From an uncultured Clostridia bacterium (GTDB lineage Bacteria > Bacillota_A > Clostridia > TANB77 > CAG-508): a stretch of 13,682 bases of DNA. This document shows positions 1-13,682 of this stretch, in pieces. The position numbers were made by a program, and so were the translations under genes. The notes under the pieces are model-generated. The model ran no database searches. It saw only the letters and a program-made list of their open reading frames with translations, and was not told the DNA's origin. Position 1 is the first letter of the stretch. Each line of letters opens with the position of its first letter. Location: the NCBI GenBank assembly GCA_944388685.1, contig CALXJS010000042.1, positions 1 through 13,682 on the forward strand, read 5' to 3'.

Positions 1-539
1 ATATCTGATATATTAATTAAACAACAGTTAAAGATTGGTTGTACAAAATAATCTGCGTCGTGGAAATGTAAAACTCCGTCAGCATCTGCTTTCGCTATTT
101 TCTCTGGCAATAGCAATCTTCTTGTTAAATCTCTTGATACTTCACCTGCAATATAATCTCTTTGTGTAGAAGCAAGTAACGTATTTTTGTTTGAATTTTC
201 TTCTGCTAATTCTTTATTCTCATTTCTGATTAGCCCTAATATTGTTTCATCAGTTGTATTTTGTTTTCTAACCAATGCTCTTGTATATCTATATACAATG
301 TATTTTTTAGCTAGTTCATATTTTTCAATTTCCATTAATTTCTCTTCAATAATATCTTGGATATCTTCAACTAGCATTCTTTTTTTATTTAAATCCTCTA
401 TATATTGGATAATCCCTTTTATATCCTCTTTATTTGCCCTTTCTTTTGGTTTTACCTCTTGATTTGCCTTCTCAATTGCTGTTTGAATTTTTGCCCTGTC
501 ATAATCAACTGCTCTTCCATCCCTTTTAATAACTTTCAT
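1..539 (-). CDS. nrdD: Anaerobic ribonucleoside-triphosphate reductase, N-terminal part (cut by window edge)
   Basis: This is the 5' end of a class III (glycyl-radical) ribonucleotide reductase, which makes dNTPs from NTPs in the cytoplasm under anoxia. About 179 residues are visible; the rest, including the C-terminal glycyl-radical site, lies beyond position 1. The protein begins MKVIKRDGRAVDYDR, the typical start of an ATP-cone allosteric domain (about residues 3-92, with YRYTRALVRK near its end). The catalytic domain follows with HFHDADY (158-164) and PIFNCCLIN (168-176); the cysteine after FN corresponds to a conserved active-site cysteine of the family. The start at 539 is fixed by AGGAGG at 549-554, nine bases upstream. 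It is divergent from the Crp/Fnr gene at 781, with a palindromic operator candidate upstream of its promoter. The activase gene nrdG would be expected further downstream, outside the window. Confidence 0.93.
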   Translation of the reverse strand, partial: MKVIKRDGRAVDYDRAKIQTAIEKANQEVKPKERANKEDIKGIIQYIEDLNKKRMLVEDIQDIIEEKLMEIEKYELAKKYIVYRYTRALVRKQNTTDETILGLIRNENKELAEENSNKNTLLASTQRDYIAGEVSRDLTRRLLLPEKIAKADADGVLHFHDADYFVQPIFNCCLINISD

Positions 540-571
540 TTTACATTTCCTCCTTCGATTAGTATGGTTAC

Positions 572-600
572 ATTATATCTCTACAAATTATATTTTCCGT
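572..600 (-). promoter_or_regulatory. Putative nrdD promoter with weak -35
   Basis: On the minus strand a perfect TATAAT (577-572) lies 17 bp after a poor -35 hexamer, ACGGAA (600-595). This would start transcription near 565, about 25 bases before the nrdD start codon. A good -10 with a bad -35 is typical of activator-dependent promoters. The palindrome at 599-612 is centred about 40-41 bp upstream of the inferred start, the class II position for Crp/Fnr proteins. A second TATAAT-like hexamer at 592-587 is an alternative. No experimental start site is known. Confidence 0.5.
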
Positions 601-612
601 TGCAAAAGCAAC
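599..612. promoter_or_regulatory. Putative Crp/Fnr-type operator, nrdD-proximal
   Basis: This is a perfect inverted repeat, GTTGC-AAAA-GCAAC. It has the geometry of Crp/Fnr-family sites (two 5-bp half-sites, 4-bp spacer) but not the E. coli FNR half-site TTGAT. The same half-sites recur at 722-735, next to the divergent regulator gene. Its location near -41 of the nrdD promoter suggests activation; this is inference. Confidence 0.65.
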
Positions 613-674
613 ACATTATGAAAAAAAGCTTTTTCCAATTCTTAATCACTTTCCCCTCTAAGTTTTTTTCTTTT

Positions 675-707
675 ATTACAAATATGTTACAAAAATGTTA
701 CAAATAT
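675..707. repeat. Three tandem 11-bp repeats
   Basis: The three copies are ATTACAAATAT (675-685), GTTACAAAAAT (686-696) and GTTACAAATAT (697-707), directly abutting. The period is about one helical turn, so a protein bound to each copy would face the same side of the DNA. The repeats lie between the two palindromes in the nrdD/regulator intergenic region. The function is unknown. They do not match the NrdR box pattern. Confidence 0.6.
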
Positions 708-721
708 ATTTTTGCATATTT

Positions 722-735
722 GTTGCTTTTGCAAC
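722..735. promoter_or_regulatory. Putative Crp/Fnr-type operator, autoregulatory
   Basis: This is a perfect inverted repeat, GTTGC-TTTT-GCAAC, with half-sites identical to those at 599-612. It covers the -35 hexamer and the start of the spacer of the regulator's own promoter (723-751). Binding here should block RNA polymerase, giving autorepression. This is inferred from position only. Confidence 0.65.
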
Positions 736-751
736 TTTTTTATTGTATAAT
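723..751 (+). promoter_or_regulatory. Promoter of the Crp/Fnr regulator gene
   Basis: TTGCTT (723-728), a 17-bp spacer and TATAAT (746-751) give a good sigma-A type promoter. The inferred start is near 758, about 23 bases before the start codon. The -35 hexamer is inside the palindrome at 722-735. Confidence 0.65.
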
Positions 752-780
752 ACTTATGTAATTTAGAAGGGGGAAAAACC

Positions 781-1413
781 ATGAATACCAATGTAGATAT
801 AGAAAATTTCATTCTTGATTTTTCTAATTCTTGCCAAAAGAAGCAAAAAAAAATCTTTAGTAAAAATGAAGTTATTACAACTTATATAAAAAATCGAAAT
901 CAATTATGTATATTACTAAATGGACATGCTGATTTAGTGCGTTATGACTTAAATGGTAATAGAACAATCGTAGAACATTTCTCCAAAAATGCACTTTTTG
1001 GAGAAGTATTTTATACTATCACCACTAATAACGAATTGCTAGTCGAAGCAAAATCCAATTGTACAGTTCTCTTCTACATTTATGATGATATTTTTCATAA
1101 ATGTAGAAACAATTGTAAATTCCATCAAAACTTATCTGAAAATTTGCCACAATTGATTTTAAATAAAGTAACAGACCTAAATATGCGAATCGAACTTTTA
1201 ACACAAAGGTCAACAAGGGATAAATTATTAAGATATTTTTCTCTACTATCCACCAGAAATTTAAGCAGGACTTTTGAACTACCTTTTTCTCTTACAGATT
1301 TAGCCGACTATTTAAGTGTTGATAGAAGTGCTATGATGAGAGAATTAAAACTTCTTAAAGAAGATGGATTTATTGAAAAAGTAGGAAATCGAATTATTTT
1401 GCTTTACAAATAA
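781..1413 (+). CDS. Crp/Fnr-family transcriptional regulator
   Basis: This 210-aa cytoplasmic DNA-binding protein has the two-domain Crp/Fnr layout: an N-terminal cyclic-nucleotide-binding-like beta barrel (about residues 15-120) and a C-terminal winged helix-turn-helix (about 165-208, FSLTDLADYLSVDRSAMMREL). Length is normal for the family. Cysteines are C18, C43, C94, C108 and C112. The C108-X3-C112 pair followed by FH is a pattern I associate with clostridial members, and a metal or Fe-S sensing role is possible but unproven. The start is supported by AAGGGGG at 767-773, seven bases upstream. It diverges from nrdD and shares an intergenic region with twin palindromes, so nrdD is its most likely target and it is probably autoregulated. 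The signal it senses is unknown. Just after its stop codon comes the nested-repeat element. Confidence 0.92.
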   Translation: MNTNVDIENFILDFSNSCQKKQKKIFSKNEVITTYIKNRNQLCILLNGHADLVRYDLNGNRTIVEHFSKNALFGEVFYTITTNNELLVEAKSNCTVLFYIYDDIFHKCRNNCKFHQNLSENLPQLILNKVTDLNMRIELLTQRSTRDKLLRYFSLLSTRNLSRTFELPFSLTDLADYLSVDRSAMMRELKLLKEDGFIEKVGNRIILLYK

Positions 1414-1416
1414 GGT

Positions 1417-1474
1417 CATTGGGGACGTGTCAAAACGGACAAAAAATGTCCAAAAGGGACAGACCTATAAAATA
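1417..1474 (+). repeat. Left terminal inverted repeat of the nested element
   Basis: It pairs with 1865-1922. It begins three bases after the Crp/Fnr stop codon and contains the short palindrome GGACA-N5-TGTCC at 1437-1451, followed by GGGACAGACC. Differences from the right arm are single substitutions, several of which would be G-U pairs in RNA. Confidence 0.85.
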
Positions 1475-1582
1475 AAATTATATATTAAAAAATTTTTTTC
1501 TAGTCTATTTTTATGAATAAATCGGAAAGCCTTAAAATTTATATTAATTTTATATTTTTTCTTTGGCATTCCGTAAATAGAT

Positions 1583-1777
1583 AAACCCAATATACTAGTT
1601 ATAAAATTTTATGAAATTAAATGTGCTAGTGAAAGAATATTACAAATTCTTACATTATCAAGTAGGAGAATCTCAGACTTGCGGTTCAGAGGTGCCTGCT
1701 TTATAATGTTAGAATTTGTATATTCTGTAACGCCAGCCATTTAATGAATAAAATTTTATAACTAGTATATTGGGTTT
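1583..1777. repeat. Core palindrome of the nested element
   Basis: The 30-bp arms 1583-1612 and 1748-1777 are perfectly complementary. Further inside, 1634-1666 pairs with 1695-1726, with one bulge and a few mismatches including a G-T wobble. The short stretches between these arms also partly pair (ATTAAATG with CATTTAAT). Transcribed from either strand it would fold into a rod-like hairpin of roughly 90 pairs. Confidence 0.8.
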
Positions 1778-1864
1778 TATCTGTTTATATATTAGTAAAT
1801 TCATACTGACTTTCTAAAATATAAAAATAAATTAACAAAATATTTTTGTAACTAATGTACTATT

Positions 1865-1922
1865 TATTTTATAGGTCTGTCCCTTTTGGACATTTTTTGT
1901 CCATTTTAACACGTCCCTAATG
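1865..1922 (-). repeat. Right terminal inverted repeat of the nested element
   Basis: It pairs with 1417-1474. Its outermost bases overlap the end of galE: the galE stop codon TAG (1919-1917) is formed by the repeat sequence CATTAGGGACG read on the minus strand. Confidence 0.85.
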
Positions 1923-2915
1923 GTTAATGTAATTCCATGAATCTAAGCACATGTCTTCTAAGTTTTTTTCTGCTCTCCACCCCAATTCTTCAAATGCTTT
2001 TTTAGGGTCTGCATAGCAAGTTGCTATGTCTCCTTCTCTTCTTGGTGCAATTTTGTATGGTACTTTTTTTCCTGTTGCTTTTTCAAAAGCTTTTACCATA
2101 TCTAATACACTATATCCTTTTCCAGTTCCTAAATTGTAAATATATAATCCTTCTTTTTCCTTCTCTAATTTTTCTAATGCTTTTACATGTCCTTTTGCTA
2201 AATCCACAACATGAATATAGTCTCTAACACCTGTTCCGTCTGGCGTATCATAATCATTTCCAAATACAGATAATTCTTTTAGCGTTCCTGCTGCTACTCT
2301 TGCAACATATGGCATTAAGTTATTTGGTATTCCTTGTGGTTCTTCTCCAATTAATCCACTTTCATGTGCTCCTACTGGATTAAAATATCTTAATATACAG
2401 ATACCCCACGTATTATCTGATTTATATATATCTTTTAAGATTTGTTCTATAAATAATTTACTTGTACCATATGGATTGGTCGTTCCACCTGTTTTACAAT
2501 CTTCTGTAATTGGAATTCTTTCTGGTTCTCCATATACCGTAGCAGATGAACTAAAGATAAATGTTTTACAATTATATTTTCTCATAGTATCTAATACAAC
2601 CAATGCTCCTGAAATGTTATTGGTATAATACTCGATTGGTTTTTGTACAGATTCTCCAACTGACTTATATCCTGCAAAGTTAATAACTGCTTCTATGTCA
2701 TTTTCTTCAAATACCTTTTCTAATTTTTCTTTATCCATATAATCCATTTCATAAAATTTAAAATCTTTTCCTGTTATTGTTTTTATTGCATCTAATACTT
2801 GTGGTTTGCTATTAGAAAAATTATCTATAATAACGATTTCTTTTCCTGCATTTAATAATTCTACTGCTGTATGACTTCCTATAAATCCTGCTCCTCCTGG
2901 TAATAATATTGCCAT
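1917..2915 (-). CDS. galE: UDP-glucose 4-epimerase
   Basis: GalE interconverts UDP-glucose and UDP-galactose with bound NAD, supplying galactose for the Leloir pathway and for cell-surface polysaccharides. The 332-aa product is a short-chain dehydrogenase/reductase: it has the Rossmann motif GGAGFIG (residues 7-13), the catalytic SSSATVYG region and the YGTSK motif (Tyr-x-x-x-Lys). The start MAILLPGG at 2915 is preferred over the longer frame to 2990 because it matches family N-termini and has AAAGGA nine bases upstream; the extra residues are not family-like. The usual TGGAGYIG is PGGAGFIG here. The C-terminus stops at DSWNYINH, several residues earlier than the usual DSWNWQ..NPNGY ending, and the stop codon is inside the repeat element, so the tail was probably trimmed by insertion. 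The catalytic core is intact. It has its own promoter at 2947-2975. Confidence 0.93.
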   Translation of the reverse strand: MAILLPGGAGFIGSHTAVELLNAGKEIVIIDNFSNSKPQVLDAIKTITGKDFKFYEMDYMDKEKLEKVFEENDIEAVINFAGYKSVGESVQKPIEYYTNNISGALVVLDTMRKYNCKTFIFSSSATVYGEPERIPITEDCKTGGTTNPYGTSKLFIEQILKDIYKSDNTWGICILRYFNPVGAHESGLIGEEPQGIPNNLMPYVARVAAGTLKELSVFGNDYDTPDGTGVRDYIHVVDLAKGHVKALEKLEKEKEGLYIYNLGTGKGYSVLDMVKAFEKATGKKVPYKIAPRREGDIATCYADPKKAFEELGWRAEKNLEDMCLDSWNYINH

Positions 2916-2946
2916 AAAAATCATTCCTTTCTTTTTATTTTTTTCT

Positions 2947-2975
2947 ATTATATTACTACTTATGAAAAAGTACAA
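2947..2975 (-). promoter_or_regulatory. Promoter of galE
   Basis: On the minus strand TTGTAC (2975-2970), a 17-bp spacer and TATAAT (2952-2947) form a good promoter, about 25 bases before the preferred galE start codon after allowing for the start site. It lies downstream of the cysS terminator, so galE is probably transcribed separately. Confidence 0.7.
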
Positions 2976-3040
2976 GTAAATTTTGAACAATAGCGGACTT
3001 TTTTAAACAATTGTGCAACGTTGTTTTTTTATTGAATAGG

Positions 3041-3088
3041 AAAAACGAACCCTCCTTGTTAAACTTTTTTGTCTAACATTTTGGGTTC
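3041..3088 (-). terminator. Intrinsic terminator after cysS
   Basis: On the minus strand GAACCC (3088-3083) pairs with GGGTTC (3052-3047). An inner helix TGTTAGAC/GTTTAACA closes a six-A loop, and the run GTTTTT follows. It sits just after the cysS stop codon. Confidence 0.75.
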
Positions 3089-3101
3089 ATTTCAAAACGT
3101 C

Positions 3102-4499
3102 CTAAAGTTCACTAATTTCTACGCCATCTTTGGTATCTTTTACACTATATCCTAATTTCTGTATTTCATCTCTCAGTCTATCAGATTCTGCCCAATTTTT
3201 TTCCTGCCTTGCAATTTTTCTTTCCTCTATTAATTTTAATACATTCTCCGGAATTTCAACATTTTTTTCTTTTCCTTCTTCATCTATTTTAATTCCCAAT
3301 ACTGTATCAAATTTTTGTAACAAATCTGCAATTTCTGGAGATTTTTTAGGATATTTTACAACCTCCCATACAAAACTCATAGCAAGTGGCATATTCATGT
3401 CATCATTAATGGCCTTATGAAACTCATTTTCTAGTTTTGCTAACTCGTTTTTATCTGTCTCATTTAAAATATCTTTTCCATTTTTATTTGTTTGATAGCC
3501 ATTTCTTAATCTTTCTAATGATTTGGAAGCAGCCTCTATCCCTTCCCATGTAAAGTTTAATTTATTTCGATAACTACAAGTATAGCACAATAATTTATAC
3601 ACCAATGGGTCATATCCTCTTTTCTTTATATCTTTTAATAGATACACATTTCCTAAACTTTTAGACATTTTCCCACCATTGATTAATAAATATTCTCCAT
3701 GTATCCAATAATTTGCAGGAATTTTTCCACAACATCCTTTACTTTGTGCAATTTCATTTTCATGATGTGTTGGAATTAAATCAATTCCTCCTGTATGAAT
3801 ATCAAATTGTTCCCCTAAATGTTTTCTTGACATAGCAGAACATTCAATATGCCATCCCGGATAACTTGGTCCCCAAGGGCTATCCCATTTCATCAAATGG
3901 TTTTCAGGTGCTTTTATCCATACTGCAAAATCATATGGATTTTTCTTTTCTGGGTCTACATCTACTCTTGCTCCTGCTTTTTGGTCTTCCACATTTCCTT
4001 TTGATAAAACTGGATATTTATCCAACTTTGATACATCAAAATAGATTGCTGTTGAGGTTTCATAAGCATATCCCCTTTTTACAAGTTCTTCTACATATGC
4101 CAACATCTCGGGAATATAATCTGTTGCTTTACAAATCACTTCTGGTACTTCAATATTTAAATCTTTTAAATCTTCAAAAAATAATTTAGTATAATGTTCT
4201 GCAATTTCCAATGGAGTTTTATGTTCTTCTTTTGCTGATTTAATCATTTTGTCTTCTCCCTCATCTCCATCAGAAACAAGATGTCCTACATCTGTTATAT
4301 TCATAACATGTTTCATTTCATACCCATTATATTCTAACATTCTTCTTAATACATCTTGAAATATATTTGTTCTCATATTTCCAATAGTTGCATCTTTGTA
4401 TACAGTTGGACCACATGAATACATTTTCACTTTCTTGTTTTCTATTGGTTTAAATACATCTTTTTCCTTTGTCAAGGTATTATATAAATATATATCCAT
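3102..4499 (-). CDS. cysS: Cysteinyl-tRNA synthetase
   Basis: This cytoplasmic class I aminoacyl-tRNA synthetase charges tRNA-Cys with cysteine. The 465-aa length is normal. Visible family marks are MYSCGPTVY (zinc ligand C29), MNITDVGHL, GWHIECSAMS (zinc ligand C220), THHENEIAQS (His/Glu zinc ligands near 245-249) and KMSKS (277-281). The first class I signature, usually HIGN or HIGH in CysRS, reads TIGN (38-41), with threonine for the first histidine. Everything else looks functional, so this may be a lineage variant. The start is supported by AGGAGG four bases upstream. It follows the PBP gene by about 70 bp, with a terminator-like hairpin between them. No T-box leader is visible. A terminator follows at 3041-3088. 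Confidence 0.96.
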   Translation of the reverse strand: MDIYLYNTLTKEKDVFKPIENKKVKMYSCGPTVYKDATIGNMRTNIFQDVLRRMLEYNGYEMKHVMNITDVGHLVSDGDEGEDKMIKSAKEEHKTPLEIAEHYTKLFFEDLKDLNIEVPEVICKATDYIPEMLAYVEELVKRGYAYETSTAIYFDVSKLDKYPVLSKGNVEDQKAGARVDVDPEKKNPYDFAVWIKAPENHLMKWDSPWGPSYPGWHIECSAMSRKHLGEQFDIHTGGIDLIPTHHENEIAQSKGCCGKIPANYWIHGEYLLINGGKMSKSLGNVYLLKDIKKRGYDPLVYKLLCYTCSYRNKLNFTWEGIEAASKSLERLRNGYQTNKNGKDILNETDKNELAKLENEFHKAINDDMNMPLAMSFVWEVVKYPKKSPEIADLLQKFDTVLGIKIDEEGKEKNVEIPENVLKLIEERKIARQEKNWAESDRLRDEIQKLGYSVKDTKDGVEISEL

Positions 4500-4516
4500 A
4501 CTTCCTCCTTTTTTTC

Positions 4517-4552
4517 AAAATGAGATGTGAAATCTTTTCATTCCACATCTCA
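4517..4552 (-). terminator. Terminator between the PBP gene and cysS
   Basis: A perfect 9-bp stem TGAGATGTG/CACATCTCA (4552-4544 with 4529-4521) encloses a 14-nt loop and is followed on the minus strand by TTTTG. It lies between the PBP stop codon and the cysS ribosome binding site. The U-run is short, so some read-through into cysS is likely. Confidence 0.6.
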
Positions 4553-4569
4553 AATCATAGATGTTCTAA

Positions 4570-7227
4570 TTATTGTGTTGTATTCCCATTTTCTGTTGTA
4601 TTATTTGTATTTCCTCCAGTTGAAGTATTTCCATCTCCTGTCGAAGTGTTGCCATCTCCTCCACTTGTTGTATTATCATTTCCTGTTGAAGTATTTCCAC
4701 CTCCTGTAGTATTTCCGCTTCCTGTAGTATTAGTTGTATTTGTATTAGTTGTGTTATTGGTTGGTTCCTCTTCTTTTGGTTCTGTGTGTAATGTACAAGT
4801 TTCATTAATTCTCGTACCTGTTGATCCTTTTCCATTAACTGGTGTCCATAAATCTAATTCTTCTTTTGGAAGTACTGCACCATAATAATTTTGTCTTACC
4901 TCACAATACTGTGAACAAAATTCTGTAGCAATTTTATTAGATTCTGTACATATTGTTTGGCTTCCATGCCCTTCACATTGCTCTGGTAAATTATCTTGTG
5001 TGAAAATTTCTGTATATTTATTTGTACATCCTGTTGTTGCTAAACATCCTGTTGTTCTGCATACAGATTGTTCTACAATACCACTTGGTCTTGTAAATGT
5101 TGCATTCTCTAAATTTTCATGAATTGATGTCATAACACTATCCCAAATTACACCTGCTGGGTTATTTCCTGAATAATATACTGTTTCTGGTTGATCATAT
5201 CCAAACCAGCATGCTGCTGCATAATATGGTGTAAACCCACAAAGCCATCTATCATAATCATCATCTGTTGTTCCTGTTTTAGCTGCCACGTCCATTCCTC
5301 TTATTGCACAATAAGTTGCTGTTCCACCAGATTTTACTGGTTCTTGTAATATAGATTTAATAATATATGCATTTTGTTCTGATATGACTCTTGTTTGTTC
5401 TTGTTTTGGTGTCAATACTGTGTTACCACTAGAATCTACAACCTTTGTATAGAAGGTTGGTGTGATATATACACCATCATTTGCAATGGATGCATATGCT
5501 GCTGCCATTTCTAATGGTGTTGCTCCATTGGTTGTTCCTCCTAAGGCTAAAGATAAATCAGCATCTTGCTCTGCATTAATATGACTAAGTCCCATCTTAT
5601 TTAGATATTCTATAGACTTACTTGGTGTCAATTCTCTCATAATCTTTACTGCTGGTACATTTAGAGACTTTGCAATAAAATATCGTATATTAACTGATTG
5701 GTTACTATATGTTCCACTCTGATTTTTAGGAATATAATTTCCTCCAAAATTTGTTTCTTGATCCATATAGGCTGTTGCAGCTGTTATGACTTTTTCTTGT
5801 AATGCTGGTGCAAGAACTGCAATTGGTTTTATTGAAGAACCAGTTTGTCTTACACTTTGTGTTGCTCTATTTAAACCTCTTGATTCTGTCTTTTCTCCCA
5901 ATCCTCCAACTGTTCCTACTACATTTCCTGTTTTATAATCTATTACTGCCATAGCTGCTTGTGAATGGTCGTTCTTTTTTTCTCCTGTTTCACTATTTTT
6001 TTCTCTTCCTGCAATAACATATTTATCTTTTGCAAATTCTTCTTCCATTTGTGTTTGAATATTTGTATCTACAGTTGAATATATTGTAAGTCCACCACTA
6101 TATACATAGTTTTCTGCCAATTGTTGAGACCATCCCTTTTCTTCCATAACTTGATCTATAACTTGATCTAACACTGCTTCTGTATGATATGAATATGAAG
6201 ATGTTGTTGCAATTGCTCCCTTTTGGAAATTCAATCCTGCATCCACTTCTGCAATTGCTGCATCATATTCTTCTTGACTATTAATATATCCTAATTCATT
6301 CATTTTATTTAATGCTACTTTTGTTTGACTTTTTATTAATTCAGTATTATCTTGACTCTCATCAAATGGATTATATCTACTAGGTGAACTATTTATACCA
6401 GCCATATAAGCACATTCAGCCAAACTCAAATCTTTTGCACTTTTGTTGAAGTAATATTCTGCTCCCAATTCTACTCCATGTAAATTTCCTTCTCCTCCAA
6501 CATATAATATATTTAAATATAACTCTAAGATTTGATCTTTGGATATCATTCTTTCTACCTGATATGCTTTTGCCCATTCCCTTACTTTTCTCATGATACC
6601 TGCCATACCAGATCTTTCATCGTCTTTTGTTATATTTTTTACCAATTGCTGTGTAATTGTACTTCCACCGTAAGAACTATTTCCTAACAATGTTTGTAAT
6701 ATGGCACCTGCTGTTCTCTTTAAATCCACTCCACTATGTTCGTAAAATCTCTCATCTTCCATTGCGACATAAGCCTTAGGCAAATAATCTGCCATATCTT
6801 CAAGTGTAATAATTTTTCGCTTCTCATCACCACTTAAATTTGCAATAACACCACCATTTTGATCAACTATAACTGAATTTGCTGCCCCAATGGTTAATTC
6901 TTCTTTGGTAATTTCAAAATCATCGCCAAATAAGCCAAAAAACACGCCTGCTACAACACCTGCACCAATAACACATAACAATAAGAACAATAATATAAAA
7001 ATTCTAATTGCCATCATTAATTTCGGATGTCTTGAAGAAAATTTTCCTTCTTTATTGTTTCCCTTTTTGCCTTTTCCTTTTTTATTCCCATTTTGTGTTG
7101 GTACTCTTTTTGTTGCTCTTGTATCTTTTTTGTTTGATGGATTTGGTCTTCTTTTTTTCTTTGCATTTTTCATATTATACTTTCTTGTTTTATCTTCATC
7201 ACTACTTCTTCTATTATTACTTGGCAT
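4570..7227 (-). CDS. Class A penicillin-binding protein (bifunctional transglycosylase/transpeptidase)
   Basis: This membrane-anchored PBP1A-like enzyme polymerises lipid II into glycan strands and cross-links the peptides outside the membrane. From the start at 7227 (AGGAGG six to seven bases upstream; a longer frame reaches 7251 without better support) it has 885 residues. The order is: a very basic, low-complexity cytoplasmic tail (1-70); one transmembrane helix (about 71-100); a GT51 domain with catalytic E157 in EDERFYEHSG and GGSTITQQL (187-195); and a transpeptidase domain with S464-S-I-K467, S521-L-N and K650-TGTT. A segment with about nine cysteines (723-775, plus C811) then precedes a Thr/Asn/Gly-rich tail (about 822-885). 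The tail is a degenerate repeat of NTST/GGN-like units and probably spans or contacts the wall. The promoter is unclear; TATAAT-like hexamers occur at 7329-7339 without a good -35. Confidence 0.94.
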   Translation of the reverse strand: MPSNNRRSSDEDKTRKYNMKNAKKKRRPNPSNKKDTRATKRVPTQNGNKKGKGKKGNNKEGKFSSRHPKLMMAIRIFILLFLLLCVIGAGVVAGVFFGLFGDDFEITKEELTIGAANSVIVDQNGGVIANLSGDEKRKIITLEDMADYLPKAYVAMEDERFYEHSGVDLKRTAGAILQTLLGNSSYGGSTITQQLVKNITKDDERSGMAGIMRKVREWAKAYQVERMISKDQILELYLNILYVGGEGNLHGVELGAEYYFNKSAKDLSLAECAYMAGINSSPSRYNPFDESQDNTELIKSQTKVALNKMNELGYINSQEEYDAAIAEVDAGLNFQKGAIATTSSYSYHTEAVLDQVIDQVMEEKGWSQQLAENYVYSGGLTIYSTVDTNIQTQMEEEFAKDKYVIAGREKNSETGEKKNDHSQAAMAVIDYKTGNVVGTVGGLGEKTESRGLNRATQSVRQTGSSIKPIAVLAPALQEKVITAATAYMDQETNFGGNYIPKNQSGTYSNQSVNIRYFIAKSLNVPAVKIMRELTPSKSIEYLNKMGLSHINAEQDADLSLALGGTTNGATPLEMAAAYASIANDGVYITPTFYTKVVDSSGNTVLTPKQEQTRVISEQNAYIIKSILQEPVKSGGTATYCAIRGMDVAAKTGTTDDDYDRWLCGFTPYYAAACWFGYDQPETVYYSGNNPAGVIWDSVMTSIHENLENATFTRPSGIVEQSVCRTTGCLATTGCTNKYTEIFTQDNLPEQCEGHGSQTICTESNKIATEFCSQYCEVRQNYYGAVLPKEELDLWTPVNGKGSTGTRINETCTLHTEPKEEEPTNNTTNTNTTNTTGSGNTTGGGNTSTGNDNTTSGGDGNTSTGDGNTSTGGNTNNTTENGNTTQ

Positions 7228-7432
7228 AATTTCCCTCCTTGCCAGTTTCAACGAAAAATATTGCTAAATACTTCTTGTTGAGATTGTACTTTCTTATTTT
7301 ATTTTCGTTTGTAAAAATCGACATTTACATTATATTATATTTTCTAAAAAAAGGAAAGTATTTGATAAAATTTTTAAGATTTTCACAAATTGGACATTAC
7401 CGCTCAATCCTATGTACACAAGACTAAGCCGT

Positions 7433-8263
7433 TTATAGCATTGTTTTATTTCCTTTTAAATATTTTATCCTAACATTCTCTTTCTTTATCTTCTTTAATG
7501 TTTCCTCAATTGGTTGTTTCTTATATAGCATTGCCTCATAGACATCTTTTGCTTCAAATGCTTCTAAATGTGGATTGGCATTCCAATTAATCTCGTAATC
7601 ATTAATATTTAAACCATCAAATCGTTTATTTTTTATTTTAACATTTCCTCTAAAATTAATAATGGTTGCCATATTATAAATTGTATATTTGTTTATCAAC
7701 TCTGTTGGAAAATCAAAATTAAAAATAATATTGGTTTTAGATAGTACTTTTCTTTTATTATTTCCTACATTAATAAAAATCCCATATTCTTCTGATATTT
7801 TTTCTTCCATATTTTGAAAACGTGCAATATGATTCGTAACAATTTTTACATATTTATATTTCGTAACCAATTCTTTAATTGCATAAATCGCAAAATCTGA
7901 AATATCATTTACCAAAATACCTATTTTAATATCTTCTTCTTTTATTTTCATTTTTTTTACTACATAATCTAAAACATCAAATAATAACATTTGAAATAGC
8001 CATTTTCCATCTACAATTTCGTAATTGTAAGAATATAAATAATTCACATATATTTCTTGCTCTTTTATCTTTTTACTTAATACTAATTTTTTACTATTGG
8101 TCTTATCTAAAATGGTTTTTGTTTTTATGGCTAACTTATATGCTGTTTTTTCTTCTAAACTTGTCTCTGTAATAGGTAACGTAATGGTGTCATTTTCTAA
8201 TTTTACCATATGAAACCATTCAGCAATTTTGCTAGGCTTGTCAGCTTCTTTTATATAATACAT
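7433..8263 (-). CDS. Uncharacterised protein with Rossmann-like segment
   Basis: I do not recognise this 276-aa protein. It has no signal peptide and no convincing transmembrane helix, so it is probably cytoplasmic. A stretch at about residues 112-185 alternates hydrophobic strands and helices (IKIGILVND, then KYVKIVTN, then YGIFINVG and NIIFNFD), as in a Rossmann-like alpha/beta fold, but a clear glycine-rich nucleotide motif is missing. The N-terminal third looks like a separate strand-rich domain, and the C-terminus is lysine-rich. It follows truB by only 62 bases. Its ribosome binding site AGGTGAT is contained in the 3' arm of the hairpin at 8264-8302, so translation or read-through from truB is probably limited. 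It is intact, with composition like its neighbours. Being next to truB does not by itself show a function. Confidence 0.8.
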   Translation of the reverse strand: MYYIKEADKPSKIAEWFHMVKLENDTITLPITETSLEEKTAYKLAIKTKTILDKTNSKKLVLSKKIKEQEIYVNYLYSYNYEIVDGKWLFQMLLFDVLDYVVKKMKIKEEDIKIGILVNDISDFAIYAIKELVTKYKYVKIVTNHIARFQNMEEKISEEYGIFINVGNNKRKVLSKTNIIFNFDFPTELINKYTIYNMATIINFRGNVKIKNKRFDGLNINDYEINWNANPHLEAFEAKDVYEAMLYKKQPIEETLKKIKKENVRIKYLKGNKTML

Positions 8264-8302
8264 AAAATCACCTCATATACTTAAGTATATTAAGGTGATT
8301 TT
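8264..8302 (-). terminator. Hairpin that hides the ribosome binding site of the 276-aa gene; possible truB terminator
   Basis: On the minus strand AAAATCACCT (8302-8293 as complement) pairs perfectly over 10 bp with AGGTGATTTT (8273-8264), and an inner ATATACTT/AAGTATAT stem stacks on it. The 3' arm contains the Shine-Dalgarno AGGTGAT and ends directly at the ATG (8263-8261). The A-rich 5' and U-rich 3' flanks also fit an intrinsic terminator of truB. Both roles could apply. Confidence 0.75.
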
Positions 8303-8325
8303 GTTTATAGAACTTTTTACATTTC

Positions 8326-9186
8326 CTATTCAATAACAATATCTCTTTTTAAAAGTTTGTCTTTTACAATACCAATTCCTATAAATTGTTGATTACTATA
8401 TATTTTATAAATTCCATCTTTTAAATCAAAACTCATTTTCACACCATTTAAAAATAATTGTAACTTTCTTTCATTTAATTCGATATTTTCTAACTTTCTA
8501 AATAAATCTTCAATTGTTATGATATGTTCTTCAATGGCTTCTTTAGTCAAGTCTTCAACTGGAATAGATTGTTCTATCGTAAAAGTTCCAACTTGTGTTC
8601 TTTGCAATTCTTTCATATAGCCAATCGTTCCCATTTTCTTTGCAATGTCCTCACATAGGATTCTAATATATGTCCCTTTTGAACAACTAACCTCAAATTC
8701 AATTTCTTTCTTTTCTTTATCTATTTTTAACAATCGTATAGCATAAATGGTTATTTTTCTTGGTTTAATTTCTACTTCTTGCCCTTTTCTAGCATATTCA
8801 TATAGCTTTTTTCCATCAACTTTAATAGCAGAATAGATAGGTGGGATTTGCTCTTGTTCTCCTAGAAAACTATTTAATATATTGTTGACATTTCGTTCTT
8901 CTAAAATGTTTTTATCCACACTCTTTTCTTGTAGAATCTCTCCTTCTTCGTCTCCTGTACTTTTCTTAATTCCTAGTTTTAAAATAACTTTGTATGTTTT
9001 ATCATGGTTCATAAGATATTTTGAACATAAAGTCCCTTTTCCAATTAATAACGGCAATACGCCTGTTGCTAATGGATCTAATGTTCCAGTATGTCCCACT
9101 TTTTCTCCTGTTATTTTTTTTACTTTTGCCACAATATCATGTGATGTATACCCTTTTGATTTATTAATGATTACTATTCCGTTCAT
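8326..9186 (-). CDS. truB: tRNA pseudouridine(55) synthase
   Basis: TruB converts U55 in the T-loop of nearly all tRNAs to pseudouridine and also acts as a tRNA chaperone. The 286-aa product shows the TruB signature GHTGTLDPLATGVLPL with catalytic D37. It also has KTYKV, YSAIKVDGKKLYEYAR and the SCSKGTYIR motif, followed by a small C-terminal PUA-like region (about 235-286). The start at 9186 has AGAGGT six bases upstream and matches family N-termini (MNGIVIINKSKGYTSHD). In many Firmicutes truB follows nrnA in the infB-rbfA-nrnA cluster; here it is separated from nrnA by the pilin-like gene and about 680 bp of gene-free DNA. It has its own strong promoter at 9256-9284. Confidence 0.96.
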   Translation of the reverse strand: MNGIVIINKSKGYTSHDIVAKVKKITGEKVGHTGTLDPLATGVLPLLIGKGTLCSKYLMNHDKTYKVILKLGIKKSTGDEEGEILQEKSVDKNILEERNVNNILNSFLGEQEQIPPIYSAIKVDGKKLYEYARKGQEVEIKPRKITIYAIRLLKIDKEKKEIEFEVSCSKGTYIRILCEDIAKKMGTIGYMKELQRTQVGTFTIEQSIPVEDLTKEAIEEHIITIEDLFRKLENIELNERKLQLFLNGVKMSFDLKDGIYKIYSNQQFIGIGIVKDKLLKRDIVIE

Positions 9187-9215
9187 ATTTGACCTCTTTT
9201 CCTGTTGCTATTTGA

Positions 9216-9235
9216 ATAAACTTTATAAAGTTTAT
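9216..9235. promoter_or_regulatory. 20-bp perfect palindrome in the truB leader
   Basis: ATAAACTTTATAAAGTTTAT is perfectly self-complementary and falls in the expected 5' untranslated leader of truB, about 30-50 bases before its start codon. It could be an operator or a weak RNA hairpin. It is AT-rich, so chance cannot be excluded. Confidence 0.4.
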
Positions 9236-9255
9236 AATTTTTTACTTTTTTTCTA

Positions 9256-9284
9256 ATTATATATACAAAAAGAAGATAAGTCAA
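9256..9284 (-). promoter_or_regulatory. Promoter of truB
   Basis: On the minus strand TTGACT (9284-9279), a 17-bp spacer and TATAAT (9261-9256) give a near-consensus promoter. The -35 is in the loop, and the spacer in the 3' arm, of the terminator of the upstream pilin gene. The inferred start is about 60 bases before the truB start codon. Confidence 0.75.
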
Positions 9285-9299
9285 ACTCATCTTCTTTTT
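9267..9299 (-). terminator. Intrinsic terminator of the pilin-like gene
   Basis: An 11-bp stem AAAAAGAAGAT/ATCTTCTTTTT with an 11-nt loop ends in a U-run on the minus strand, just after the pilin-like gene's stop codon. It should isolate truB from expression of that gene. Confidence 0.75.
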
Positions 9300-9307
9300 T
9301 AATAGAT

Positions 9308-10615
9308 TTAATTTGTCCCTGTCCAATTCACTTGAACAGAATTACTTGCTCGCCATTTACTTCCTGAAATTGCATTTTCACTTCTGTCTATATTAATTGT
9401 CTTTAGGTTCGATGTTCTATAAAAAGCACCATCTTCTATGGTTTGCACTGAACTAGGTATATTAATTGTAACAAGTGATTCTGTACTATCAAATGCATAT
9501 TCTTTAATAAGTTGTGTCCCCTCTGGTACTGTATATTCTGTTCTCTCATTGCCTGCACAATATGTCAATAACTCTGTGCCTTCTTTATTAAATAATACAC
9601 CATCTATAGATTTATAATTTGGATTTTCTGCATCAACATCTATATATGCACATCCTGATTGAAAAGCACTATAATGTATTGAGGTCAATGTTTTTGGTAT
9701 ATATACCCTATCCAAACTATAACAATCGTAAAAAGCTTCATCTCCAATTTCTGTTAATGTACTAGGAAATGTTATTTCTTTTAAGCTAACACATTCGTCA
9801 AAACTACCCCATCCTTCTATTTTTTCTAAACCTTCTGGTAAATTGATGGTCTCTAATTGTTCACAAAATGAAAAAGCTCCTTCCTTTATTGTTTTTATTG
9901 TTGATGGTAACTCTACATTTGTCATTATCATACACTCAAAAGCATATTCACCAATTTCTTCTATGCCTTCTTCTACAATAACATTTTTGATATTTTGGCC
10001 TAATGAATAATCTCCTAATATTGAATAATATCCATCAATTTCTAAAGCTACTATACGCTTTATTTTTGTTCCATCTATCTCACTTGGAATAACCAATGTT
10101 TCTATTTCATTTACATCTTCGCCTATATATTTGATGATTGTTCCTGTTTCTTCATCATATTCCCAAAGCAATGAATTTTTATCCGAAATAGAAGTTATAT
10201 TTCCTTCCTCATTATTATATACATACGTTCTTCCAGAAGAAAAAGTAATTGTTAATGTTTCTGCTCCAGTCACTGTAGCCATCGAATCATATTTTTGCAA
10301 TTCTTCTTCTAATTCACTTGCCCCCACTACGTCATTTTCTCCATTGCTTAAATGATTTGCTTTTATTGTTGATACCCCCAAGCTTATCCATTCTTTTTCA
10401 TTTCCTATTTCTGTATTTTCTTTTGCTTGGCTTGCTCTTGTTAATATTCCATTTTCTCCTGTTAATGTTGCAATCGTTACACCTGCTAATATTAGCAAAA
10501 CGATGATCGTTATAACTAGTGCAATCAGTGTAATACCTCTTTGTTTTACAACAAATTCTCTTTTTGTTACATGTTTTTTCTTTTTTACAAATTTAGAAAC
10601 TTCTTTTTCTTTCAT
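9308..10615 (-). CDS. Prepilin-like surface protein with BspA-type leucine-rich repeats
   Basis: This 435-aa protein begins with a basic leader ending VVKQRG. Then comes a hydrophobic helix (about 28-50, starting ITLIALVITI) as in type IV prepilins and pseudopilins, so a prepilin peptidase should cut after G27. The glutamate usual at mature position 5 is absent (ITLIA), as in many clostridial members of this type. After a linker (about 60-165), residues about 170-410 form LRR_5/BspA-like repeats of the pattern IxxIGxxAFxxCxxLxxxxLPxxL. This part probably faces outward and binds host or bacterial ligands. The start at 10615 has GGGAG 11 bases upstream; the longer frame to 10651 lacks a ribosome site. 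No fixed strong promoter is visible close upstream; the best candidate sits in the putative invertible segment at 10801-10999, facing away. A terminator follows at 9267-9299. It interrupts the nrnA-truB neighbourhood. Confidence 0.85.
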   Translation of the reverse strand: MKEKEVSKFVKKKKHVTKREFVVKQRGITLIALVITIIVLLILAGVTIATLTGENGILTRASQAKENTEIGNEKEWISLGVSTIKANHLSNGENDVVGASELEEELQKYDSMATVTGAETLTITFSSGRTYVYNNEEGNITSISDKNSLLWEYDEETGTIIKYIGEDVNEIETLVIPSEIDGTKIKRIVALEIDGYYSILGDYSLGQNIKNVIVEEGIEEIGEYAFECMIMTNVELPSTIKTIKEGAFSFCEQLETINLPEGLEKIEGWGSFDECVSLKEITFPSTLTEIGDEAFYDCYSLDRVYIPKTLTSIHYSAFQSGCAYIDVDAENPNYKSIDGVLFNKEGTELLTYCAGNERTEYTVPEGTQLIKEYAFDSTESLVTINIPSSVQTIEDGAFYRTSNLKTINIDRSENAISGSKWRASNSVQVNWTGTN

Positions 10616-10666
10616 TCTTATTTTTTCTCCCTTTCTTTTGTTTTTTATCATTTGAAATTTGTGTAC

Positions 10667-10680
10667 TTTTCTAAGAGTAT
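10667..10680 (+). repeat. Third, imperfect copy of the inverted-repeat sequence
   Basis: TTTTCTAAGAGTAT matches TTTTCTTAGAGTAT of the right inverted repeat (10982-10995) at 13 of 14 positions, in the same orientation. It lies in the pilin gene leader, directly after an orphan AGGAGG (10687-10682, minus strand) that has no start codon at a suitable distance. Confidence 0.5.
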
Positions 10681-10800
10681 TTCCTCCTTTTTTCTCTCTT
10701 ATACTTTTTTTATCAATTATTATATATTTTACATTTTATATTTAAATGCGAATTAAATTAATATGTAATCGTATTTTATTTCTTGACTTTTTACTTGAAT

Positions 10801-10816
10801 TTCGATACTCTAAGAA
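10801..10816 (+). repeat. Left inverted repeat of the putative inverton
   Basis: TTCGATACTCTAAGAA is an exact reverse complement of 10984-10999. Identity ends sharply at both sides of the 16 bp. Confidence 0.85.
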
Positions 10817-10938
10817 TATATTAAATATTTGCAATCCATTGACATTACTACATTCTCGCTGTTTTTTATAATAATAAATTTTACATATATTTTTTGATTT
10901 TTTACAAAACATTCTTTTAATTTTTTTACCTTTTTTTA

Positions 10939-10967
10939 TTGACTTTAGTATCTTTTATTGTTAAAAT
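10939..10967 (+). promoter_or_regulatory. Strong promoter inside the putative inverton
   Basis: TTGACT (10939-10944), a 17-bp spacer and TAAAAT (10962-10967) match the sigma-A consensus at 5 of 6 positions in each hexamer. The inferred start is near 10974, ten bases before the right repeat. No gene lies downstream on this strand in the present orientation. Confidence 0.6.
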
Positions 10968-10983
10968 TTAGTTGAAAAAAATT

Positions 10984-10999
10984 TTCTTAGAGTATCGAA
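10984..10999 (-). repeat. Right inverted repeat of the putative inverton
   Basis: TTCTTAGAGTATCGAA on the plus strand is the exact reverse complement of 10801-10816. It also forms the 5' arm of the terminator at 10984-11014. Confidence 0.85.
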
Positions 11000-11014
11000 C
11001 TCTGGGAATTTTTT
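10984..11014 (+). terminator. Terminator formed by the right repeat and its flank
   Basis: TTCTTAGAGT (10984-10993) pairs with ACTCTGGGAA (10999-11008) over 10 bp including two U-G pairs, around the loop ATCGA, followed by TTTTTT (11009-11014). It would stop RNA from the 10939-10967 promoter after about 40 nt. The two wobble pairs become C-A mismatches on the minus strand, so it favours the plus direction. Confidence 0.65.
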
Positions 11015-11151
11015 GTTATAATTCAAAATGTGAAAAACTCAAAATTATTATAATATATCCTTTTCTATATAAAAATTTACTTTTATCTTGATTTTTACAG
11101 ATAATACATCTTTTAACTAATTAGACACATTTCAATAAAAGTTTAATAAAT

Positions 11152-11240
11152 AAAAAAAGTGTATATCCTATTTTATAAATTAAATGGCTAATATTCTTTT
11201 ATTTGCACATTTAATTTATAAAATAGGATATACCTTTTTG
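11152..11240. terminator. Long perfect hairpin, probable bidirectional terminator after nrnA
   Basis: A perfect 26-bp stem (11161-11186 with 11208-11233) encloses a 21-nt loop. It is preceded by seven A (11152-11158) and followed by CTTTTT (11234-11239), so it has a U-run in either direction. It lies about 100 bp after the nrnA stop codon and probably ends the infB-rbfA-nrnA transcript. The stem is longer than a usual terminator, so a small palindromic insertion is an alternative. Confidence 0.65.
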
Positions 11241-11332
11241 TTATTTTAAATCAATATTAACAAACATCCTCAATCGGACATTCGCCATTTTTCGACATAA
11301 ATGAGACAAAAAGCAACCTGGCCCAATTTGTC

Positions 11333-12286
11333 CTATATCACTTTCTTAATTTCTCTTACTAACTTTTCTTTTACTTGTTCTACTGTTCCTGCTACAACTG
11401 CACCAGCTGCTCTAGGGTGTCCACCACCCCCAAATATATAACAAATGTCAGAAACATTAATATTTTCTCCATTTCCTGCTCTCATAGAAACTTTGTATAG
11501 ATTTTCTTCTTTTTCTCGTATAAATACAGAGACTTTTACTCCTTCTATACTTCTTGCACTTTCAACGATTCCTTCATGATCTCCTACTTCTGCATGTACT
11601 TCTTCTTCATCTTTTTTATTGATATATGTAAAAGCAATTTTATCATCTTCTAAAAGTTCTAATCGATTCATGGCTCTTCTTAATAATTCAAAATTTGATT
11701 TTCTTCTGGTTTCTAACACCCTTTGATAGATGTCTGATATGTTTACACCTTTTCTTAATAATTCTGCTGTAAATTCAAAAGTTTCTGCCGTTACACTGGC
11801 ATATTTAAAACCACCTGTATCTGTAATAATTCCTGTGACAATACAACTTCCTATTTCTGCATCAATATCAATATCAAAATATTCAAACATACCTGCTAAT
11901 ATTTCACAACAAGCTGGTGATGCTGGATTTACGAAGTTTAAATCTCCATACATGGTATTTGTACTATGATGATCAATGACAATTGTTTTTTTCGCTTTTT
12001 CAAAGTATTCTCTTCCTATCAATCTTTTTAAGTCCGCACAATCTAATGAAATAGCCAAATCATATTTTTCTACATCTGATTTTTCTTTTACTGTATTGGC
12101 TCCTGGTAAAAAGGCAAATGTTCTTGGAAATTCTTTTACAATTATATCTGCTTCTTTTCCTATTTTCTTTAAGGCTAATTTCATAGACAACATACTTCCA
12201 ATGGCATCTCCATCAGGTGTTTCATGTGCCATTAGAACAATTTTTTCTGCTTGCTTTATTTCTACTAAAATATCATCTAAGGTCAT
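11333..12286 (-). CDS. nrnA: Bifunctional oligoribonuclease / pAp phosphatase (DHH family)
   Basis: NrnA degrades very short RNAs (nanoRNAs) to mononucleotides and dephosphorylates 3'-phosphoadenosine 5'-phosphate to AMP, in the cytoplasm with Mn2+. The visible motifs are HETPDGDAIGS (D25, D27), LDCAD (D82), IDHHSTN (DHH at 105-107) and, in the DHHA1 domain, GGGGHPRAAG (from 286). From the start at 12286 the protein has 317 aa, the usual family length, with AGGAAG six bases upstream. The frame stays open to an ATG at 12385, but the extra 33 residues are not family-like; an AAGGAG lies 14 bases before that ATG, so a longer form cannot be fully excluded. It follows rbfA in the normal cluster order; truB, normally next, is displaced by the pilin locus. 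Confidence 0.92.
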   Translation of the reverse strand: MTLDDILVEIKQAEKIVLMAHETPDGDAIGSMLSMKLALKKIGKEADIIVKEFPRTFAFLPGANTVKEKSDVEKYDLAISLDCADLKRLIGREYFEKAKKTIVIDHHSTNTMYGDLNFVNPASPACCEILAGMFEYFDIDIDAEIGSCIVTGIITDTGGFKYASVTAETFEFTAELLRKGVNISDIYQRVLETRRKSNFELLRRAMNRLELLEDDKIAFTYINKKDEEEVHAEVGDHEGIVESARSIEGVKVSVFIREKEENLYKVSMRAGNGENINVSDICYIFGGGGHPRAAGAVVAGTVEQVKEKLVREIKKVI

Positions 12287-12439
12287 TTTTTTCTTCCTTT
12301 CTATAGAGTCAGGAGACACTTCATTCTTTTGGGTCTGTTCACATGGATTAAGTTTTTTATTACATAGAAAAGTTGCTTTTTTCATATGACAAAAAATGTC
12401 TCCTTATAAGTACGTATTCCATTTGCTAAAGTTTATCCT

Positions 12440-12805
12440 CTAATTTTCTTCTCTTTTTGCCATAATTTCTTTTAAAATTGAATCAATTTTTGCACCATAT
12501 TCAATTGAGTCATCTAATTCAAAGATTAACTCAGGTGTATTTCTTAAATTTACTCTTTTGGCCAATTCACTTCTGATAAATCCTGATGATTTTTTTAGTC
12601 CAGCCAATGTATCTTTTATATTTTTTGAATTTAATATACTAACATAGACTTTTGCATATTTCAAGTCATTGGTTACTTTTACTTTTGTAACACTAATCAA
12701 TCCTGTCACATTTGGATTTTTTAATTCATATCCGATAATTTGACTAAGTTCTTTTTTATATTCTTCATCAATTCTTCCTAGTCTTGGATTTTCTTTTCCT
12801 TTCAT
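12440..12805 (-). CDS. rbfA: Ribosome-binding factor A
   Basis: RbfA is a small cytoplasmic assembly factor that binds free 30S subunits and supports 16S rRNA 5'-end maturation, including in the cold. The 121-aa length is normal. It is a single type II KH-like domain: it opens with RLGRIDEEYKKELSQII, continues NPNVTGLISVTKVKVTND and YAKVYVSI, and ends with the RNTPELIFELDDSIEYGAKID signature. The start at 12805 has AAGGAG nine bases upstream. It follows infB by 112 bases with no terminator visible between them, so the two are probably co-transcribed, as in most bacteria. Confidence 0.95.
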   Translation of the reverse strand: MKGKENPRLGRIDEEYKKELSQIIGYELKNPNVTGLISVTKVKVTNDLKYAKVYVSILNSKNIKDTLAGLKKSSGFIRSELAKRVNLRNTPELIFELDDSIEYGAKIDSILKEIMAKREEN

Positions 12806-12917
12806 ACATTTCTCTCCTTTATAGAGTTATTTCTCCTTTTGTTTGTTGTTTTTAATTTTGTTGTTCTACCGTCTTTCGACCCATCAAAATATTTACTTAA
12901 TAGAAACGCCTCTTCTT

Positions 12918-13682
12918 TTATCTTTTAATCTCTTCCATAACATATACTTCAATAATATCTCCTTCTTTGATGTCATTATAATCCTCAATCTGCATTCCAC
13001 ACTCAAATCCTTTTGTAACTTCTTTAACTTCATCTTTAAATCTTTTTAATGTTGCTAAATGTCCATCATGAATAACAATATTATCACGTATAACTCTCAC
13101 GCCTGCATTTCTCTCTACTTTTCCATTTAATACATATGCACCAGCAATTGTTCCCACATTTGAAATCTTAAATGTTTGTCTTACTTCAACATTTCCAATA
13201 ACTTTTTCTTCAAACTTAGGTGCTAGCATTCCCTTCATAGCTGCTTCTACATCTTCAATTGCTTGATAGATAACAGAATATTGTTTAATTTCTACTTCTT
13301 CTTTTTCTGCCATTTCTTTTGCTGTATGATCTGGTCTTACATTAAATGCAATGATGATTGCATTTGATACTTTTGCAAGTGTGACATCTGATTGGTTAAC
13401 AGCACCTGCTGCACTATGAATAACTTTTACCCTAACCTCTTCGTTTTGTAATTTCTCTAATGATTGTTTTACAGCTTCTACTGAACCTTGTACATCTGCT
13501 TTTACAATCAAATTCAATACTTTTAATTTTCCTTCTTCCATTTGACTAAATAGATTATCTAAAGTTACTTTTGTTACAGAATTCATTGCTTTTTCTCTTG
13601 CTTGGCGTTTTCTTCTTTCTATTAAATGTTTTGCCATTTTTTCATTTTTAACTTCATAGAAAGTATCTCCTGCTTCTGGTAC
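12918..13682 (-). CDS. infB: Translation initiation factor IF-2, C-terminal part (cut by window edge)
   Basis: IF-2 is the GTPase that brings fMet-tRNA to the 30S subunit and promotes subunit joining. Only the last 254 residues are present. The frame is open to the window end (beginning [11 protein letters not shown]), so the methionine at 13637 is internal and not a start. The G domain is outside the window. Visible are the end of domain II ([16 protein letters not shown]), domain III with the characteristic [18 protein letters not shown] and [11 protein letters not shown] stretches, [12 protein letters not shown], and the C-terminal beta-barrel that binds the initiator tRNA (ending [18 protein letters not shown] and VYVMEEIKR). 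It is the first visible gene of the infB-rbfA-nrnA cluster. Confidence 0.97.

Follow-up and report, generated by a model that had tools for sequence, protein, structure and literature searches.

The segment at positions 10801 to 10999 of a contig from an uncultured Clostridia bacterium was very likely an invertible promoter, and it belonged to a large family of similar switches found across related genomes. In the mechanism that we propose, either end of the segment carries an imperfect palindrome (half-sites of about 9-10 bp, spacer of 5-7 nt) to which a tyrosine recombinase would bind. Strand exchange would take place inside the spacer and would therefore require identical spacers in a pair. 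As the segment now lies, transcription from the internal promoter P1 would lead away from a prepilin-like gene and into the distal site, which would act as a terminator. Once the segment is inverted, the same promoter would fire through the gene-side site, where there is no terminator, and into the gene. A single recombinase would act on all the copies in a genome, and slippage at a tract of T9-T11 would switch the reading frame of the recombinase itself.

The window, by which we mean the whole stretch of DNA that was analysed, was 13,682 nt long (GCA_944388685.1, contig CALXJS010000042.1, positions 1 to 13,682). The features of the locus were as follows.

9308 to 10651, minus strand: prepilin-like protein of 447 aa, the presumed target, with GITLIALVITIIVLLILAGVTI near the N-terminus and BspA-type LRR repeats
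10719 to 10746, minus strand: alternative fixed promoter-like site facing the gene, TTTAAA-N16-TATAAT, 10 of 12
10733 to 10761, minus strand: decayed fixed promoter P2 facing the gene, TTAATT-N17-TAAAAT, window position worked out by hand
10792 to 10800: degenerate outer half-site, directly left of the left arm
10801 to 10816, plus strand: left arm, made of the 7-nt spacer TTCGATA (10801 to 10807) and the inner half-site CTCTAAGAA (10808 to 10816)
10817 to 10983, no strand: putatively invertible interior of 167 bp, conserved in the family mainly around the promoter
10939 to 10967, plus strand: promoter P1, TTGACT-N17-TAAAAT with an extended -10 (TG before the -10), facing away from the prepilin-like gene in the assembly
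10984 to 10999, minus strand: right arm, made of the inner half-site (10984 to 10992) and the spacer (10993 to 10999)
10984 to 11014, plus strand: terminator-like form of the right recombination site, with a stem of TTCTTAGAG / CTCTGGGAA and then T6
11333 to 12385: ORF adjoining the switch on its far side, which we take to encode a DHH-type phosphoesterase

An earlier note on this DNA had described a perfect 16-bp inverted repeat with 167 bp between its arms and, inside it, a promoter TTGACT-N17-TAAAAT facing away from the surface gene. Both were borne out: TTCGATACTCTAAGAA at 10801-10816 had its exact reverse complement at 10984-10999, and the promoter lay at 10939-10967 of the plus strand, so that inverted repeats flanked a short segment with an outward promoter. 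No perfect inverted repeat of at least 16 bp with a gap of 100-300 arose in 300 first-order Markov simulations of the window, where the observed count was 16 seeds and took in other repeats of the window too. By sequence alone, the P1 of the window was not above chance (7 sites in a promoter scan against 6.0 in shuffles); its weight came from its conservation across the element family. Two other statements had to be corrected. The distance from the gene to the left arm had been given as 185 bp, and the longest ORF started at 10651, 149 nt from the arm. The gap had been described as having no strong fixed promoter, and it held both the TTTAAA-N16-TATAAT site (10 of 12, at 10746-10719) and the decayed P2 (at 10761-10733). 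The prepilin segment of the ORF at 9308-10651 was recognised by eye and was named by neither Pfam nor NCBIfam. Peptidase_A24 (prepilin peptidase) was present in all eight carrier genomes searched, with the copy of G038 split by stops. In the leader of the prepilin-like gene, TTCTAAGAGTAT at 10669-10680 closely resembled the inner half-site together with some of the spacer; by alignment, L031 and L069 retained it in part.

The repeat of the window is, judged from the DNA of its relatives, a member of a dispersed paralogous family of predicted switches. A DNA search found many copies of the switch region in G001 and G008, and relative to their flanks the copies lay in both orientations. G001 was the nearest comparison genome, with 27% of the sampled words in common with the window. 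A strict element pattern occurred in 6 of 97 genomes of the G001 genus, and a control pattern had no match in any of the 97. The strict pattern was also present in at least 80 stretches of records titled uncultured Clostridia bacterium, Clostridium sp. or Eubacteriales bacterium. With a looser pattern, all 15 carriers held from at least 2 to at least 29 copies (control 0 in 15/15), the highest number being in G111. In that genome, 11 of the 29 elements lay less than 500 nt from a contig end (counted by eye), which would agree with either mixed orientation or repetition of the pilin 5' regions. Additionally, 29 of 85 elements (e.g., L118, L147, L112) had no recognised prepilin-like gene on either side; a contig end accounted for some of them, and some may drive other secreted proteins.

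Site anatomy was analysed in 83 distinct elements, among them that of the window. In the 16-bp arm, a spacer of 7 nt adjoined an inner half-site of 9 bp, CTCTARGAA, and an imperfect outer half-site, TTCYTAGAK, lay beyond the spacer. The spacer was the same within the pair in 82 of the 83 elements and the same between loci in 494 of 3403 comparisons, in a set that was picked by exact inner half-sites and mostly also by ATA at the spacer end, so that the spacer varied freely only in part. Matches at the base just outside the spacer were not in excess within pairs (0.40 vs 0.41), and for the variable half-site base the excess was small (0.81 vs 0.75). Since the spacer was matched within pairs and the next outer base was uncorrelated, the exchanged stretch mapped to the spacer. 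Such an exchange suits a tyrosine recombinase, because these enzymes need spacer homology. Spacer matching within pairs can serve elsewhere as a hint of active inversion that does not require reads.

An alternative account is that these are static promoter cassettes bounded by repeats and spread by duplication, whose arms serve as regulator sites or terminators without recombining at present. The copies were paralogous and the flanking pilin 5' regions were repeated, as duplication would have it, and most orthologous pairs kept one orientation. However, static cassettes do not account for spacers that were matched within pairs yet diverged between loci, nor for orthologous loci found in both orientations, one of them with an identical interior, and we consider this account very improbable.

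The opposite orientations that support inversion came from two orthologous loci, at which a segment of about 197 bp was inverted between genomes. Namely, the 197-bp elements of L046 (G001) and L101 (G118) were identical on the same strand, with 0 differences, while their flanks aligned in reverse, at 91.8% over 1003 on one side and 97.5% over 669 on the other. This locus had an ORF that we take to be GroEL-like on one side and a prepilin-like gene on the other. At the second locus, L127/L283 (G111) and L132/L293 (G112) had an interior of 98.5% identity over 196 and reversed flanks at 83.6% and 94.6%; L283 and L295 (G044) were likewise in opposite orientation. Nine orthologous pairs, not mutually independent since three came from one trio, shared one orientation, against the two that were swapped. 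The element at L046 1428-1624 and L101 670-866 was identical over 197 bp inside flanks of 92-97% identity, which raised the question whether it was a recent transfer or a homogenisation of the switch.

At the locus of the window itself, no inversion was found: the window, L069, L070, L071 and L112 (5/5) had the same orientation, and in L112 the contig ended where the prepilin-like gene would be. The earlier note had proposed a search of related genomes for the opposite orientation, and this form was present at the two orthologous loci of the family but not at the window's locus, where the four syntenic relatives were all alike. Degenerate repeats in relatives that keep the gene, which would have spoken against an inverton, were not seen at the four syntenic loci examined. 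The reading of the segment as an inverton was thus supported by the paralogous family, the matched spacers, the conserved internal promoter and the two orthologous loci seen in both orientations. In a strict gene-side census of 85 elements, P1 pointed away from the gene (OFF) in 50 and toward it (ON) in 6, and 29 were not assigned; a laxer census of 97 elements gave 67 OFF, 17 ON and 13 not assigned.

P1 was the main conserved feature of the interior among 85 elements, with mean information of 0.56 in the promoter half and 0.21 in the other half. Its consensus was TTGACTTTACTATATTTTATTGTTAAAAT, and the distance between its end and the outer end of the arm was 30-34 nt in all 83 elements. The two recombination sites differed as potential terminators. 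Of 55 loci, 33 had a stem of at least 8 pairs with a T-rich tail at the distal site and none had one at the gene-side site (one of 56 loci was left out for its short flank).

Many loci also carried a fixed promoter, P2 (TTGACT-N17-TANAAT), 37-40 nt outside the gene-side arm. It was present in 24 of the 44 loci with room for it. The P2 region reached 10 of 12 in 25/44 loci, against 4.2 expected from shuffles and 8/44 on the non-gene side. P2 was not found in the 12 of 56 loci where the gene started within 60 nt of the arm, a distance that leaves little room for another promoter. In the syntenic relatives, L069 had TTGACT-N17-TAAAAT and L070 had TTGACT-N17-TACAAT, L071 was without P2, and in the window the -35 had decayed. 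The OFF state that had been assigned to the window's assembly may thus be less than a full one: P1 faced away from the gene, but two syntenic relatives carried a consensus fixed promoter facing it. A plain on/off model for all switches was weakened by this conserved P2: since it faced the gene at many loci, orientation need not mean off. Inversion would probably switch expression between low and high where P2 survives between the switch and the gene, and between off and on where it is absent.

Evidence on the enzyme was drawn from the genomes of relatives. The earlier note had suggested looking for a recombinase beside the same 16-bp repeat; none was recognised among the listed ORFs of the window, and the candidate found in relatives was not adjacent to the switches. 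G008 encoded an intact tyrosine recombinase of 310 aa, and orthologues with 73-100% identity over the matched part were present in 14 of 15 carriers; none was found in the carrier G044, whose genome was 85% complete. In the draw of 97 genomes, an orthologue occurred in 5 of the 6 carriers and in 0 of the 91 others, and 24 other genomes had a homologue of 37-58%. Since the carriers are relatives, this phyletic link between recombinase and switch was not independent. The residues R152, K195, H259, R262, H285 and Y295, which we take to be the catalytic R-K-H-R-H-Y set of a tyrosine recombinase, were invariant in every one of the 109 homologues that exceeded 290 aa in the list of the best 120 of 1939. 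The nearest solved relative by sequence was an Int protein (PDB 6en0 and others, E 2.6e-22, catalytic domain), presumably the Tn1549-type Int, which differs in being a transposon integrase. Serine recombinases of G001 and G008 were considered and set aside: no arm pair lay alongside them at up to 2 mismatches, only single weak matches.

None of the 14 recombinase loci searched for inverted repeats had the half-site beside the orthologue. Similarly built elements, whose sites were perfect but had a different half-site, ACTTAAAGA, lay beside distant homologues of the candidate in L212 and L229, and less perfect sites of this type lay beside those in L213 and L245, leaving 22 of 26 such loci without. 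Perfect ACTTAAAGA sites numbered 5 in the 26 distant-homologue loci (95.7 kb) and 0 in 270 other loci (1.11 Mb). Loose sites of this second family (up to 4 mismatches) were not clearly denser near homologues (15 in 95.7 kb vs 125 in 1019 kb), and loose pairs also occurred in 28 of the 270 other loci, all of which had been retrieved for first-family elements. The second family was found in 7 of 97 genomes, and in 18 of its 19 pairs the two arms had a 5-nt spacer in common (by eye; the exception was G053:C150). These spacers differed between nearly all loci, with all five positions free. A recombinase homologue was present in 6 of the 7 second-family genomes vs 29 of 97 overall; G045 had a second-family element and no homologue at the cut-off, and the second-family pattern was unmatched in 23 of the 29 homologue-bearing genomes.

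The promoters might instead be inverted by a Xer protein or the integrase of a mobile element, with the candidate gene serving some other purpose. Each of 11 genomes searched had 4 to 13 tyrosine recombinase matches, most genomes including Xer-like ones, and the distance of the candidate from the switches, as well as its absence from G044, would be natural under such a scheme. On the other hand, a different enzyme would not explain an orthologue in 14/15 carriers and 0/91 non-carriers of the draw, nor the other-half-site switches beside distant relatives of the candidate, and it seemed to us rather unlikely. The tyrosine recombinase of the carriers, whose gene contains a T-tract, was thus the best candidate enzyme for the first-family switches.

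The T-tract was a run of 9-11 T located before the part encoding HxxR-H-Y in 14 orthologues. It was in frame in 3 of them (G008, G112, G118) and out of frame in 11, of which 8 had one shifted register and 3 the other. At the same place, all 26 more distant loci had T runs of 2-8. The part after the tract had a median dN/dS of 0.02, against 0.10 before it (90 of 91 pairs usable), and among the 11 frame-off genomes alone its pN/pS was 0.040. In the best 120 of 1939 proteins, the 22 clusters at 70% identity or more comprised 11 full-length proteins and 11 ending at the tract, and none of the other 98 ended early. Moreover, nearly identical proteins differed in their state: frame-off G038 matched full-length P0007 at 99.1% over 222 aa, and frame-off G111 matched full-length P0010 at 98.6% over 222 aa, in both cases across different assemblies and with a T-run length that can be misread in metagenome assemblies. 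A coding homopolymer of varying length with in-frame and frame-off alleles, as in a contingency gene, was thus present. In L229 (G021), a distant recombinase homologue was split near the same place, not by a T-run.

The frame break might also not be a heritable switch. Runs of 9-11 T are slippery, and programmed transcriptional or ribosomal slippage on the run could always yield some full-length enzyme at a low level, in keeping with the strong purifying selection after the tract in the frame-off genomes themselves. A fixed shift would have no need of all three registers or of varying tract length, and near-identical alleles in full-length and frame-off form both existed; we therefore regard programmed slippage as possible but doubtful. 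The occurrence of both alleles in near-identical lineages fits a slippage switch. From the purifying selection after the tract and the near-identical full-length versions, the candidate recombinase was probably phase-variable. Such frame switching would leave the set of switches frozen in many lineages and let it flip when the tract is in frame.

A two-tier system of variation, in which we place middling confidence, would follow these lines. Replication slippage at the T-tract would gate the recombinase, and the recombinase would gate from at least 2 to at least 29 promoters per genome, mostly those of prepilin-like genes. The surface of a lineage would be frozen at some times and shuffled at others, the matching of spacers within pairs would restrict recombination from one locus to another, and the recombination site would also act as the terminator of the off orientation. 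If this is true, a slippage-switched recombinase decides at what times the entire surface of a cell can be reshuffled, which would be a second level of bet-hedging. The family also offers a concrete surface-variation system for an uncultured group of Clostridia.

Multi-locus promoter inversion is already known. The Mpi invertible promoters of Bacteroides fragilis depend on a serine recombinase, whereas the candidate here was of the tyrosine type. Like the family described here, they are served by one recombinase that acts globally on surface architecture (Coyne 2003, as cited in PMC11892184). The mpl (p35) lipoproteins of Mycoplasma penetrans are similar in that many surface genes have invertible promoter-like sequences and one site-specific tyrosine recombinase is involved (Horino 2003, 2009, as cited in PMC8593674), but they belong to another lineage and gene family. 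Further points on which the present family may differ from mpl are its pair-matched and locus-specific spacers, a distal site that is often terminator-like and a T-tract frame switch proposed for the recombinase. According to passages of PMC2784873, the cwpV switch of Clostridioides difficile is a 195-bp segment between short inverted repeats that controls a surface gene, with a terminator proposed at the repeat-segment junction of the OFF transcript and about 5% of cells expressing. It thus resembles the elements here in its segment bounded by short repeats, its surface gene and the terminator proposed for the OFF state, but its promoter is fixed outside the segment and ours lies inside (PMC2784873). 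The vpma system of Mycoplasma agalactiae likewise combines inversions by a tyrosine recombinase (Xer1) with a poly-T tract; there, the tract is at a promoter, and here it is inside the recombinase gene (PMC2268961). Where T or A tracts are located in the passages of PMC3047005 and PMC2268961, it is elsewhere than in recombinase coding sequence, and phase variable invertases of B. thetaiotaomicron are mentioned in a passage of PMC10620806 without a mechanism. In the open PMC literature, covered mostly at the level of listings, we found no clear description of a recombinase whose switch is a homopolymer in its coding sequence. Literature on prepilin/BspA invertons in uncultured Clostridia and on Clostridia invertons, covered mostly at the same level, did not describe the present element family. 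The sources cited for comparison, in part, were PMC11868660, PMC11892184, PMC2784873, PMC8593674, PMC5903667, PMC10620806, PMC3047005 and PMC2268961.

The window contained two further repeats. A long hairpin with 39-nt arms (92%) lay at 11148-11246, between the switch and the downstream ORF, and sequence like it occurred repeatedly in G001 and G008. At 1417-1922 lay an inverted repeat of 60 nt (95%) that enclosed nested palindromes. Its inner part, at about 1582-1760, recurred at 81-89% identity in the loci of five relatives, and the whole looks like a dispersed, MITE-like repeat.
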